A DNA stretch of 64,000 bases, from the NCBI GenBank assembly GCA_020629835.1, contig JAHDCO010000002.1, positions 62,001 through 126,000 on the forward strand, read 5' to 3'. Numbering within the stretch: the first letter of the stretch is position 1; every line of letters starts with the position of its first letter. The notes beneath the pieces are model-generated. The model did no database searches. It was not told the DNA's origin and saw nothing but the letters and a program-made list of their open reading frames with translations. Position numbers and translations under genes: made by a program. The stretch is from Granulosicoccaceae bacterium. GTDB taxonomy: Bacteria; Pseudomonadota; Gammaproteobacteria; Granulosicoccales; Granulosicoccaceae. Positions 15,188 to 22,936 of the stretch are shown piece by piece.

Positions 15188-15597
15188 CGGAACAAGCTCT
15201 GTTGGCCAAGTTGCCGCAATTCACTGCAGCGAACCGCGAATATTAATACGATCTCGGTAAATATTCAATCAATTGCCGACATTTGAGCCCACATTTAGTA
15301 ATCGATACTGAGCCTTAGCCTTGTACAAAAGGCATCATATTCAATTACTTACATGCATTTTCCCACAATCATCAATACTTTGACGATTCTTAGGCCAAAA
15401 TAAACGCCAACGTATCAGGCGAACGCCTGGGTCTCATTCGCGGCACAACGCTTAGTTGCTCAAAATTTTCACAGCCGAAACCGTTGAATTATTGCCTGTG
15501 GATAAGTAACCTAAACGGCTCGTTTGCGGGAGCGTGTTCACACACAAAAGCTGCCCATTCCTTTCCATTTTTTCTGTACCCGTCGCTGGAGGCGTTC
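15188..15597. other. Divergent rpmH-dnaA intergenic region
   Basis: This 410-bp region separates the leftward rpmH operon from rightward dnaA, the point where the coding strand switches. It is A+T-rich in the middle (about 15235-15400). It has one exact DnaA box and a weaker 9-mer TTTCCCACA at 15359-15367 with two mismatches. It must hold the promoters of both operons. With a single good box it is a weaker origin candidate than the dnaA-dnaN gap. Confidence 0.6.
15497..15505 (-). promoter_or_regulatory. DnaA box upstream of dnaA
   Basis: TGTGGATAA, the exact complement of the high-affinity DnaA box TTATCCACA. It lies 93 bp before the dnaA start, where boxes commonly mediate autorepression of dnaA. 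Autoregulation is inferred from the position. Confidence 0.75.
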
Positions 15598-17031
15598 TTG
15601 TCCGCAACACTTTGGAATCAGTGTCTCTCGCAACTTGAAGTGGAACTCTCGGAAGGTCACCTCAACACCTACATCAGGCCATTGCAAGCACACGAAAGCC
15701 CTTCGTTGCTGCGCATCATGGCGCCCAACCGATTCGTTTTGACTAAGGTGCAAAGCAGTTTCTATCCTCGCATTTGTGAGCTCGCAACGGGCATATCCAA
15801 AGACCCTTCTATGACGGTGAAGTTGGTCGTAGGTACTGAGGTTCTGGAACCCTTATCCACTAAGACTGAATCCCCGGTACCCGAATTAGAGACGGCCGGT
15901 GCCTCAAACTCTGATACAGCTGGATCGAACCACTCTTCGAGTCGAGCGAGCGGCTTGAAGCAAAAAACGACGTCAGCCGATCAAGATGACTCGTTTGATG
16001 CCGCACACGCCTCGGCATTGAACCCCATGTTTACGTTTGACACCCTGGTCAAAGGGAAATCAAATCAGTTAGGCCATGCCGCTGCCATGCAGATCGGATT
16101 AAATCCTGGCGCCGGCGCGTACAACCCATTCCTCATATACGGCCAATCAGGTTTGGGTAAAACCCATCTTATGCAGTCCATCGGGCATGCCATCCTGGAA
16201 AGCAACCCAACCGCCAGAGTCCTTTATCTGAATTCTGAAAAGTATGTTGTAGACATGGTGTACGCACTTCAAAAAGGCAAAATGGATGCTTTTAAACGCT
16301 ACTACCGCAATCTAGACGCCCTGCTTATCGACGATATTCAGTTTCTAGCCAAAAAAGAGCAGAGCCAAGAGGAATTTTTTCACAATTTCAATGCGTTATT
16401 TGAGGGTGCGAAACAAATCGTCTTGACTTGTGATCGGTATCCGAAGGAAGTACCCGGCCTGGCAGATCGACTGAAAACTCGCTTTGGATGGGGGCTGACA
16501 GTGGCCGTTGAACCTCCTGAAATGGAGATGCGAATGGCCATATTGAACAGCAAAGCGGCCCAATCGGGTGTTACCTTGCCTCAAGACGTCTCAATGTTTA
16601 TCGCACAACGCATCGCGTCCAACGTTCGTGAGCTCGAAGGTGCGCTTAAACGAGTTTTAGCCAATGCTCTGTTTACGGGTTCCCCAATCACCATCGATTT
16701 TGCGCGCGACGCGCTGAGCGATCTTCTGGCTGTACAGGCCAAATTAGTCACGATCGAAAATATCCAAAAGACGGTTGCTGAATATTTCAATATCCGTCTG
16801 GCCGACCTATCCGGTAAGAGCCGCTCGAGATCCATTGCACGACCTCGCCAAATCGCCATGAGCATTGCCAAAGAGCTCACCAGCAAGAGCCTCCCGGAAA
16901 TCGGGCAAGCCTTTGGTGGTCGAGACCACACGACAGTTTTGCACGCGTGTCGGAAAATAGCCGAACTTAAAGAATCGGATAACGCCGTCAGAGAAGATTG
17001 CGCCAATCTACTGAGAATCCTGACCTCCTGA
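15598..17031 (+). CDS. dnaA: Chromosomal replication initiator DnaA
   Basis: AAA+ protein that binds DnaA boxes and melts oriC. 477 residues from TTG 15598, chosen because TGGAGG at 15587-15592 sits five bases upstream and the protein then begins at the conserved TLWNQCLSQLEVELSEGHLN. An in-frame TTG at 15484 would add 38 unrelated residues. Domain I is residues 1-80, and a Ser/Thr-rich linker follows (about 85-135). The AAA+ domain has YGQSGLGKTHLM and ALLIDDIQFL. The DNA-binding signature GGRDHTTVLHACRKI lies near the C-terminus. Confidence 0.97.
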   Translation: MSATLWNQCLSQLEVELSEGHLNTYIRPLQAHESPSLLRIMAPNRFVLTKVQSSFYPRICELATGISKDPSMTVKLVVGTEVLEPLSTKTESPVPELETAGASNSDTAGSNHSSSRASGLKQKTTSADQDDSFDAAHASALNPMFTFDTLVKGKSNQLGHAAAMQIGLNPGAGAYNPFLIYGQSGLGKTHLMQSIGHAILESNPTARVLYLNSEKYVVDMVYALQKGKMDAFKRYYRNLDALLIDDIQFLAKKEQSQEEFFHNFNALFEGAKQIVLTCDRYPKEVPGLADRLKTRFGWGLTVAVEPPEMEMRMAILNSKAAQSGVTLPQDVSMFIAQRIASNVRELEGALKRVLANALFTGSPITIDFARDALSDLLAVQAKLVTIENIQKTVAEYFNIRLADLSGKSRSRSIARPRQIAMSIAKELTSKSLPEIGQAFGGRDHTTVLHACRKIAELKESDNAVREDCANLLRILTS

Positions 17032-17320
17032 ATCGATGCACACGCGTTCGTCCGTAAAAGAGTACAGTCCGTACACAAGGTGCAGGAAAACCTGTGTATA
17101 ACTCGTGGAACGTGCGGGTATAAGTAAACGGGGCTGAAGTTATCCACATTTCACCCACAGCTTTAAGCAGGCTTATCCGAACAGTTTGGTCTGTAGTTGT
17201 ACTTCCGATATATCATTGATTAGTAAGCAAATATTAGACTTATACACAGCTTCGGTATTACCTAATAAAAACAATAATCATTAGTCATCATCAAAAAAAG
17301 AAACTTTCTTTAAGTTGCCT
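17032..17320. other. Probable oriC: DnaA-box cluster with A+T-rich segment
   Basis: The 289-bp dnaA-dnaN gap has three exact DnaA boxes: TGTGTATAA at 17093-17101 (minus), TTATCCACA at 17140-17148 (plus) and TTATACACA at 17240-17248 (plus). A weaker TTATCCGAA lies at 17173-17181. From about 17205 to 17315 the DNA is strongly A+T-rich, a good unwinding element. Several bacteria keep a functional origin in this gap, so it is the best origin candidate here. The dnaN promoter must also lie inside it. Function is inferred, not shown. Confidence 0.7.
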
Positions 17321-18430
17321 ATGAAATTCAGCGCTCAACGAGAAAATCTAACCGTCCCATTGCAACACGTCATTGGTGCAGTAGAGAGAAAACAAACCTC
17401 CCCTATTTTGGGCAACATATTGATTGAAGCGAATGAAACAGGACCTGTTCTGTTCACTGCAACTGATTCTGAAATTGAATTACAAGCTTCAGTTGACTTG
17501 CATATTGATCAAACGGGCCAAGTGACCGTTCCCGCACGGAAATTATTCGACATTTGTCGTCATTTACCTGACTCAGCTCGAGTGGATCTGGACGTTCAAG
17601 GGGACAAAGCGAAACTAAAATCAGGACGCAGTCGTTTCACCCTATCGACATTACCGGCCAATGAGTTTCCGAAAACCGAACCGTTGAATAACACGCAGTT
17701 AGTGACGTTATCTGTGGAAGAACTTCAAGGCTGTCTGCAAGCGACAGCGTTCTCAATGGCTCAACAAGACGTCAGATTTTATTTAAACGGCTTGTTGCTT
17801 GAAATCGGTAATCAATCGCTCTCATGCGTTGCCACCGATGGGCATCGTTTGGCACACGCGCAATGTGGGATTAAAGCTGAACCTGAAAGCCCTATTCGAG
17901 CCATTGTTCCCAGGAAAAGTATTGGTGAATTACAAAGACTGCTTGGCACAGCAGACGCAGAGGATGAAGTGTCGATTCACGTGACACCTCAACAGTTGCA
18001 GGTTTCACTTAACGGTATTCGGCTGACCACCAAGCTAATCGATGGAAGCTTTCCTGATTACAACCGGGTTATCCCCACAGACAGCAACAAAGAACTGGTT
18101 ATCGACTGTGCCTCGCTTAAGCAAGCGCTAACGCGAGCTTCAATTCTGTCGAACGAAAAGTACCGCGGGGTCCGACTGGCTCTGCAGACCGGTGTTCTCA
18201 CGATTACAACCAATAATCCGGAGCAAGAAGAAGCGGTGGATGAGTTGGAGGTGGATTATTCCGGTGATTCAACCGAAATTGGCTTCAATGTCCAATACAT
18301 ATTGGATGTTCTGAACGCCATAGACACGGAGAACGCAGTCATACGATTGAAGGACGGAAACAGCAGCGCTCTGATCACTCCTGAACAATCCACAAATTGT
18401 CAGTACGTCATCATGCCCATGCGTTTGTGA
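17321..18430 (+). CDS. dnaN: DNA polymerase III sliding clamp, beta subunit
   Basis: Ring-shaped processivity clamp of the replicase. 369 residues from ATG 17321 (MKFSAQRENLTVPLQHVIGA). Three topologically similar domains are present, and it ends in the conserved peptide-binding C-terminus YVIMPMRL. An in-frame TTG two codons earlier is not needed. It overlaps recF by four bases (GTGA). Confidence 0.98.
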   Translation: MKFSAQRENLTVPLQHVIGAVERKQTSPILGNILIEANETGPVLFTATDSEIELQASVDLHIDQTGQVTVPARKLFDICRHLPDSARVDLDVQGDKAKLKSGRSRFTLSTLPANEFPKTEPLNNTQLVTLSVEELQGCLQATAFSMAQQDVRFYLNGLLLEIGNQSLSCVATDGHRLAHAQCGIKAEPESPIRAIVPRKSIGELQRLLGTADAEDEVSIHVTPQQLQVSLNGIRLTTKLIDGSFPDYNRVIPTDSNKELVIDCASLKQALTRASILSNEKYRGVRLALQTGVLTITTNNPEQEEAVDELEVDYSGDSTEIGFNVQYILDVLNAIDTENAVIRLKDGNSSALITPEQSTNCQYVIMPMRL

Positions 18431-19528: not shown

Positions 19529-19544
19529 TGTTTCACGTGAATCA
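19529..19544 (+). other. parS-like ParB-binding site 1
   Basis: TGTTTCACGTGAATCA matches the widely conserved bacterial parS (TGTTTCACGTGAAACA) at 15 of 16 positions. It is in a non-coding gap about 11.5 kb from parAB. ParB binding is inferred. Confidence 0.85.
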
Positions 19545-19733
19545 GATACCCGACCGGCCATGAACTTTAGACATTCATGCCTTCGGATCCTTTGGCACCG
19601 TTCAGAATCTTCGATGGTTTGCTTTCGTACCTGGCTCTCTCAGCAGAAAACCACCCACGAATCAAACGATAGATATTTGGGCTGGAGTGAAGCCAATATT
19701 GACCGAGCACACTGATTTAGACATCACTATCTA

Positions 19734-19749
19734 TGTTTCACGTGAATCA
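19734..19749 (+). other. parS-like ParB-binding site 2
   Basis: The same 16-mer as site 1, TGTTTCACGTGAATCA, 205 bp further on. Repetition of the same one-base variant suggests that it is the preferred or a recently copied site in this genome. Confidence 0.85.
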
Positions 19750-20033
19750 TTGCCCTGGCTTTCAACTCAACCAACCAGCCCAAGCGAAGTTGATTCTCAA
19801 AACTAACTGGTCAACGCTGCTTACCAAGAAATGCCGACCGTACCGACTATCCAGACTTTTCATAACGTAGGCTCAGCAACGAAACCAGCTAGTGGGAAGA
19901 CGTGGAGTGATACTTCGTCGTACCAAAAGTATTTGTAACGTTGGATGGGCGGAGTAACAAACACTTCGTGGTCAGTCCAGATACGGTTAGTTGAAAACAA
20001 GACATGTTGATTAGCCAATCTTCACTGCGCCCA

Positions 20034-20049
20034 GGTTTCACGTGGAACA
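20034..20049 (+). other. parS-like ParB-binding site 3
   Basis: GGTTTCACGTGGAACA matches the consensus at 14 of 16 positions. The right arm CACGTGGAACA resembles the Pseudomonas form of parS. Confidence 0.8.
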
Positions 20050-20066
20050 AATTATTCGTGTTACTT

Positions 20067-20082
20067 GGTTTCATGTGAAACC
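20067..20082 (+). other. Degenerate parS-like site 4
   Basis: GGTTTCATGTGAAACC has 13 of 16 matches. The arms are a perfect inverted repeat, but the central CACGTG is CATGTG. It starts 33 bp after the start of site 3, so the two may bind ParB as a pair. This is the weakest of the four. Confidence 0.55.
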
Positions 20083-20348
20083 TGTGTTCATGGAGAAACT
20101 TCGCGGGTAGGTAGCGGAAAGTAGGATCATCGCAGTGGCAATAAGAAACTTGGAAGCAGGGCAGCTCAGCCGCTGTCACCACTTGTCTTAAAGCTACCGT
20201 GCGTCTTCAAATCGATAGCGCGATTTTTATCATTAACTCCCCTGGCGATGAGCACTGTACAAGGACAGTTTGGAAGGGCATAACAGCGCACTGTTTGTGA
20301 ATTCTAGGTGTTTGTGTAACTTTTTGATTTTATCATTTTTTTCAGTGA

Positions 20349-22874
<2,526 letters not shown>

Positions 22875-22936
22875 ATTGCCATGATGTTCTCGTGGTAATG
22901 GAAGTCTAACTTTTTCGTTGTTGTGTATAAAAGACC

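Follow-up and report, generated by a model that had tools for sequence, protein, structure and literature searches.

A candidate chromosomal origin of replication between dnaA and dnaN in a Granulosicoccus-type gammaproteobacterium, with E. coli-like anatomy

Introduction

The question raised by this locus is in which of the gaps around dnaA replication of the chromosome begins. Origins between dnaA and dnaN are already a known kind. In Pseudomonas, an origin in the rpmH-dnaA gap was reportedly described by Yee and Smith (1990), and the two-origin question in that genus is said to be a long-standing one, associated with the names of Yee and Smith (1990) and Jiang (2006). The window, which is the whole 64-kb stretch of DNA that was analysed (G000:C25:62001-126000), comes from a Granulosicoccus-type gammaproteobacterium whose assembly consists of 149 contigs and is 97% complete; its family, the Granulosicoccaceae, is distantly related to E. 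coli. A first-pass annotation had drawn attention to a cluster of DnaA boxes between dnaA and dnaN, and had proposed that initiation occurs there rather than beside mnmG as in E. coli.

Gene order and limits of the gap

The genes mnmG, mnmE, yidC, rnpA and rpmH are found in this order on the minus strand, followed on the plus strand by dnaA, dnaN, recF and gyrB, with mnmE and yidC named by eye from sequence and position. Strand use therefore switches in the rpmH-dnaA gap (15188-15597, 410 bp), as had been noted. With the start of dnaA (15598..17031, plus strand; TIGR00362, 549 bits) taken as the TTG at 15598, and that of dnaN (17321..18430, plus strand; TIGR00663, 354 bits) as the ATG at 17321, the dnaA-dnaN intergenic region occupies 17032..17320 (289 bp), exactly as first delimited, and is proposed as oriC on the basis of its box cluster, low stability and conservation in the family. 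An Rfam scan of the window gave no match.

DnaA boxes around dnaA

Three exact matches to TTATNCACA lie in the dnaA-dnaN gap, at 17093 on the minus strand and at 17140 and 17240 on the plus strand, and together they span 156 bp, bearing out the earlier count of three perfect boxes on both strands within 160 bp. Judged against the strict TTATCCACA, the box at 17140 is the only perfect one, because the other two read TTATACACA. Box 1 (17093..17101, minus strand, TTATACACA) is an R4-like outer box that faces away from the unwinding side, box 2 (17140..17148, plus strand) is TTATCCACA, and box 3 (17240..17248, plus strand, TTATACACA) is R1-like and adjoins the unwinding side; the outer boxes are divergent and 147 bp apart. 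The weaker fourth box of the first-pass annotation is also present, as TTATCCGAA with 2 mismatches (17173..17181, plus strand, 33 bp past box 2), and it is accompanied by other 2-mismatch boxes at 17115..17123 (minus strand, 22 bp from box 1), at 17151..17159 (plus strand, 11 bp past box 2), and at 17034 (plus strand), all within the same gap. Three or more exact boxes arose in none of 5000 Markov shuffles of the gap (mean 0.018), and a clustering of 3 of the window's 6 exact boxes within 281 bp was reproduced in 21 of 20000 random placements. Over the whole window, 29 boxes match TTATCCACA with at most 1 mismatch, against a shuffle mean of 13.0. A lone exact box is also found at 22922-22930 (minus strand), in the 62 bp that separate gyrB from the following gene.

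The rpmH-dnaA gap holds just one perfect box, in agreement with the first reading of the sequence, at 15497..15505 on the minus strand and 101 bp upstream of dnaA; of 5000 shuffles of this gap, 109 contain one exact box or more. The three closest relatives (L001-L003) likewise have a single box, 104-107 bp upstream of the gene. This recurrence at 101-107 bp, shared by the window with these relatives, fits autoregulation of dnaA, and the box at 15497 is, from its position, probably autoregulatory.

Unwinding side and IHF-like site

The DNA between box 3 and dnaN is A+T-rich, as first described (72% AT over 17249-17320). Of all 80-bp stretches in the 64-kb window, the one with the lowest stability starts at 17208, where a duplex-unwinding element (DUE) is predicted (17208..17288). 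A trio-like tract, CTAATAAAAACAATAATCATTAG (17262..17284, plus strand), begins 13 nt after box 3, and at that spacing the window reads CTA ATA, two in-frame trios only, before the register breaks; the best trio run in the window, at offset 6, does not exceed shuffles (p 0.53). A usable plus-strand box was present in 56 of the 65 gaps examined, and 32 of these then show at least 3 consecutive NTA steps; the spacer between box and trios is exactly 13 nt in 27 of those 32 loci, and in 22 of 26 after removal of the 6 loci that had been found by a spacing pattern. Many family loci have the full set of elements of the basal unwinding system, BUS (a box, a spacer of at most 16 bp and at least 3 NAN trios), while the window has two trios at spacer 13.

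On the other side of box 3, 18 bp behind it, lies an IHF-like site, AATCAATGATATA (17209..17221, minus strand), with 1 mismatch to WATCAANNNNTTR (p 0.045). In 37 of 45 rows the best IHF-like match is at this same distance behind the R1-like box, and in 32 loci the match there has at most 1 mismatch. The genome encodes IHF-alpha (152 bits) and DciA (32 bits), both over the cut-off, and a search of the 97%-complete assembly gave no match to SeqA; there are no GATC motifs in the window's dnaA-dnaN gap. The presence of IHF-alpha and DciA with no SeqA match makes plausible an IHF-assisted, SeqA-free origin, with DciA aiding the helicase.

Conservation among relatives

Boxes were counted in the gaps of 41 loci, with L027 (an endosymbiont), L034-L043 (other phyla) and duplicates of named loci (L045-L061, L063-L067 and L069) set aside, and with up to 600 bp before dnaA used for the four stretches that have no rpmH (L002, L031, L062 and L072). 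Among the 29 family loci with both gaps, which are not independent of one another, the dnaA-dnaN gap carries at least one exact box in 27 and at least two in 20, whereas the rpmH-dnaA gap carries at least one in 9 and two in 1; the dnaA-dnaN gap is the richer in 27 of the 29. The reverse is seen in L023 and L026, where rpmH-dnaA has a perfect box and dnaA-dnaN lacks one. When some other gammaproteobacteria are included with the family, 71 exact boxes are found in 38 dnaA-dnaN gaps, where 0.7 are expected, and 19 in 40 rpmH-dnaA gaps, where 0.9 are expected. Four loci labelled Methylophaga (L021, L022, L024 and L044) argue against a universal dnaA-dnaN address: their one exact box is in rpmH-dnaA, their dnaA-dnaN gap lacks any, and they give no core-profile match at E<=1.

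The arrangement of the boxes is conserved as well as their location. With box 3, the R1-like box, as the anchor, 28 of 43 loci have box 1 at a distance of 145-147 bp. Between box 1 and box 2 the distance is 46-47 bp in 29 of 45 loci; among the rest it is often about 57-58 or 68 bp, in steps of about 11 bp. The weak boxes follow the same register over 28 loci, plus-strand ones being enriched 11 bp past the position of box 2 and minus-strand ones 11 and 22 bp from box 1, with z-scores that are inflated by relatedness. One locus (L020:9402-10275) has a dnaA-dnaN gap of 871 bp with two box pairs, at 34 (minus) and 102 (plus) and at 644 (minus) and 713 (plus) within the gap, and looks like a duplicated origin segment.

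Core-profile search in Gammaproteobacteria

An exact pattern (box, 12-14 nt, CTARTA) was tried on 369 gammaproteobacterial genomes and rejected: 35 matched, and a reversed control gave similar numbers (about 38 against 30 by hand count). Among 30 exact-pattern loci that were read, 10 are in dnaA-dnaN, the window's own included, and 2 are beside mnmG. The pattern was too loose genome-wide, true cores being told apart by gene context alone, and a profile of the 84-bp core was therefore built from 24 family sequences and run on the same 369 genomes. It matches at E<=0.1 in 242 of them, against some 37 that chance alone would give if the rough E-values are right. Over the full window, 17205-17283 is the sole strong match (51.8 bits; next 3.4 bits). 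Core matches at E<=1 were obtained for 18 of 36 loci, a set that includes E. coli and was picked mainly for weak or distant cases; E. coli oriC comes up only when filters are off.

Seventy of the 71 best hits were placed: 51 are in dnaA-dnaN or directly on the dnaN side, 11 adjoin rpmH, 3 adjoin mnmG and 5 are elsewhere; the spacing within these hits is partly built into the profile, but their genomic address is not. Two of the 70 (G000 and G013) are training sequences, and the unplaced hit, rank 50, is inside L196. L173 and L195, stretches clipped at contig starts, were counted as dnaA-dnaN from their contig positions, and coordinates were used to assign L227 and L219 to the dnaN side and L196, L199, L216, L218 and L232 to the rpmH side.

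Several genomes have cores in uncommon settings. The single contig of G397 carries two, 21.7 kb apart (L176 at 4951442 and L218 at 4973182), one adjoining mnmG and the other adjoining rpmH at the record end, which is possibly a relocation in progress. In L196 (G322), divergent cores at about 416-493 and 1998-2070, 1.5 kb apart, stand around a 361-aa ORF and neighbour rpmH-rnpA-yidC, with no dnaA in the stretch. At L169 and L186 the core match is strong and comes with two or three DnaA boxes, the flanking genes not being those usual at origins; both are possible relocated origins.

GC skew and parS-like sites

Cumulative GC skew, which had been put forward as a check on the gap, places the origin at the dnaA gene cluster, but the minimum is not in the dnaA-dnaN gap: for the window and the 201-kb contig C25 alike it is at 19886, in the recF-gyrB gap 2.6 kb downstream. 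In the complete relative G023 (7.78 Mb), all 10 samples between 0.39 and 3.9 Mb have positive skew and all 10 at 4.29-7.58 Mb have negative skew, with one sign change between 3.9 and 4.29 Mb and the other across the record start, at dnaA. Measured from the record start of G023, the local minimum is at 3.8 kb and dnaA at 0.3 kb, and mnmG lies on the other side, about 16.5 kb from dnaA; the skew goes on falling past mnmG, which argues against an origin there. A skew switch at the dnaA-dnaN locus is seen both in G023 and on contig C25, at a resolution of several kb. Among 23 loci, 17 gave a minimum, the others being short or without a gene, and relative to the start of dnaN these minima range from -4.7 to +6.1 kb. 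Taken with the minimum at 19886, this scatter means that skew marks the gene cluster and cannot choose among its gaps.

The recF-gyrB gap also contains four parS-like palindromes (at 19529, 19734, 20034 and 20067, within 19529..20082), 2.2-2.8 kb beyond the dnaA-dnaN gap. Sites of the parS type are commonly near oriC and not inside it. In L005-L014, L018 and L025, parS-like sites occupy fixed positions inside recF (about +1527 and +1746, counted from the start of dnaN), and the window has at +1527 a decayed parS-like version (18848, 3 mismatches); parS seems to have moved between the window and these relatives.

Choice among candidate origins

The box cluster, the shared spacings, the addresses of the core and the skew together point, therefore, to a dnaA-dnaN origin with E. 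coli-like anatomy. That initiation occurs downstream of dnaA, as first suggested, is supported by box location in the family, fixed geometry, the core profile and low duplex stability, and on this sequence evidence the dnaA-dnaN gap is very probably the chromosomal origin, oriC.

The gaps on either side of dnaA could also be read differently. As in B. subtilis, boxes flanking dnaA on both sides might cooperate in a bipartite origin, and the window does have one box upstream and three downstream of the gene; yet bipartite origins have box clusters on both sides, whereas here there is a single box upstream, only 9 of 29 family loci have any box there, and the arrays, the IHF-like site and the unwinding DNA are all in the downstream gap, so that we think this reading improbable. 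The origin might instead lie in rpmH-dnaA as in Pseudomonas, with the dnaA-dnaN boxes merely regulating dnaN or titrating DnaA. The strand switch in that gap, the perfect box at 15497 and the 11 of 70 placed cores that adjoin rpmH in other genomes would agree with this, as would the melting of the P. aeruginosa origin, mapped to rpmH-dnaA (PMC5109545). Against it, exact boxes are absent from this gap in 20 of the 29 family loci that have both, the profile is strong at 17205-17283 alone, and the lone box fits dnaA autoregulation; where a Pseudomonas-type origin has a box cluster and a DUE in rpmH-dnaA, the window has one box and no core-profile match in this gap. An origin on the rpmH side therefore seems very improbable.

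Farther from dnaA, the 911-bp recF-gyrB gap attracts attention as the site of the skew minimum and the four parS-like sites, and one of the less stable stretches begins there, at 20299. However, the window's gap has no DnaA box at up to 1 mismatch, nine such gaps with settable ends, the window's included, contain one exact box in total, and parS sites are commonly near oriC and not inside it; replication is most unlikely to begin there. An origin beside mnmG, as in E. coli, was already disfavoured: mnmG is 6-8 kb from the dnaA-dnaN gap in the window, and 3 of the 70 placed gammaproteobacterial cores are at this address, but there is no exact box near the window's mnmG, and the skew of G023 is still falling beyond its own copy of the gene, leaving this location scarcely credible.

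Proposed mechanism

For an origin in the dnaA-dnaN gap, the boxes, the weak duplex, the IHF-like site, their spacings and their conservation are evident from sequence, whereas DnaA and IHF binding, melting and initiation are inferred by analogy with E. coli. DnaA would load on two opposed arrays, anchored at box 1 (17093, R4-like) and box 2 (17140) and continued by weak boxes in an 11-bp register. Bending by IHF at 17209-17221 may then bring the arrays to the R1-like box 3 (17240), and DnaA would open the A+T-rich DNA beside dnaN, starting from the CTAATA tract 13 bp past box 3. By the same analogy, the DnaB helicase would be loaded at the opened DNA, probably with DciA.

To judge from the shared 18- and 13-bp spacing, gammaproteobacterial origins may carry one conserved unwinding module whether they lie at dnaA-dnaN, rpmH-dnaA or mnmG. 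Whether the 84-bp core (IHF site, 18 bp, R1-type box, 13 bp, trio-like tract) is the ancestral gammaproteobacterial module, normally at dnaA-dnaN, with the mnmG-side oriC of E. coli and the rpmH-dnaA origins as relocated copies that kept its spacing, is a question on which we stand evenly balanced. If so, E. coli oriC would be the same module at a new address and not a diverged mechanism, and genomes with cores at two addresses, such as G397 with its mnmG-side and rpmH-side cores, would be snapshots of the move. A single shared module would also bear on a remark in PMC8287927. A literature search, conducted mostly outside subscription papers and on partial texts, found no publication about the origin of a Granulosicoccus and none reporting that the IHF-R1-DUE spacing is constant from one origin address to another, and the conserved spacing common to three chromosomal addresses is possibly the new part of this work. 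The analysis fixes a likely origin, with a precise and testable anatomy, for a little-studied gammaproteobacterial family, and the ruler common to dnaA-dnaN, rpmH-side and mnmG-side origins is the part that deserves specialist attention.

Comparison with known origins

The B. subtilis oriC and its BUS, as presented in PMC8287927 and PMC13220808, share with the window the dnaA-dnaN address and a box followed within 16 bp by trio-like DNA; the window differs in having no upstream box cluster, an IHF-like site, and only two in-frame trios. The rpmH-dnaA origin of Pseudomonas is likewise a gammaproteobacterial DnaA-box origin adjoining dnaA, but on the opposite side of the gene, and in the rpmH-side cores of L172 and L200 the unwinding side faces rpmH.

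A close likeness is to the oriC of E. coli K-12 (mnmG-mioC, NC_000913), which has divergent outer boxes, weak boxes in 11-bp steps like those of the window and family, and CTAATAA 13 nt ahead of R1, where the window has CTAATA at its R1-like box. In E. coli (L075) an IHF-like match, GATCAACAACCTG, with 2 mismatches (p 0.375 in shuffles), is found 18 nt behind R1, as in the window, and we take this match to correspond to the IHF site known to lie between R1 and R5M. The core profile aligns without gaps to E. coli oriC at R1, though weakly (8.9 bits, filters off, 801-bp stretch). The sites of the E. coli low-affinity arrays are 2 bp apart (PMC4451416) and the arrays have two opposite orientations (PMC4451416, PMC8407004), a shared E. 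coli-like origin motif with variable box arrangement is described (PMC4451416), trios and R1 boxes are already named as leading motifs of gammaproteobacterial origins (PMC7174414), and the E. coli BUS score is called relatively weak (PMC8287927).

The differences are that E. coli oriC is beside mnmG, has 11 GATC motifs against none in the window's gap, whose host has no SeqA match, and has outer boxes about 180 bp apart (a hand-derived distance) against 147. As GATC motifs occur in origins only of taxa with Dam, according to PMC7174414, GATC and SeqA are treated here as accessory features. The window element is not filed as a full member of the E. coli-type oriC: it has the divergent box cluster, a predicted IHF-like site and an unstable A+T-rich DUE beside the R1-like box, and lacks dense GATC/SeqA sequestration and the mnmG location. 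The contrast with E. coli that was drawn at the outset thus holds for the address, dnaA-dnaN as opposed to mnmG, but not for the anatomy, which in its 13- and 18-nt distances is strikingly E. coli-like.
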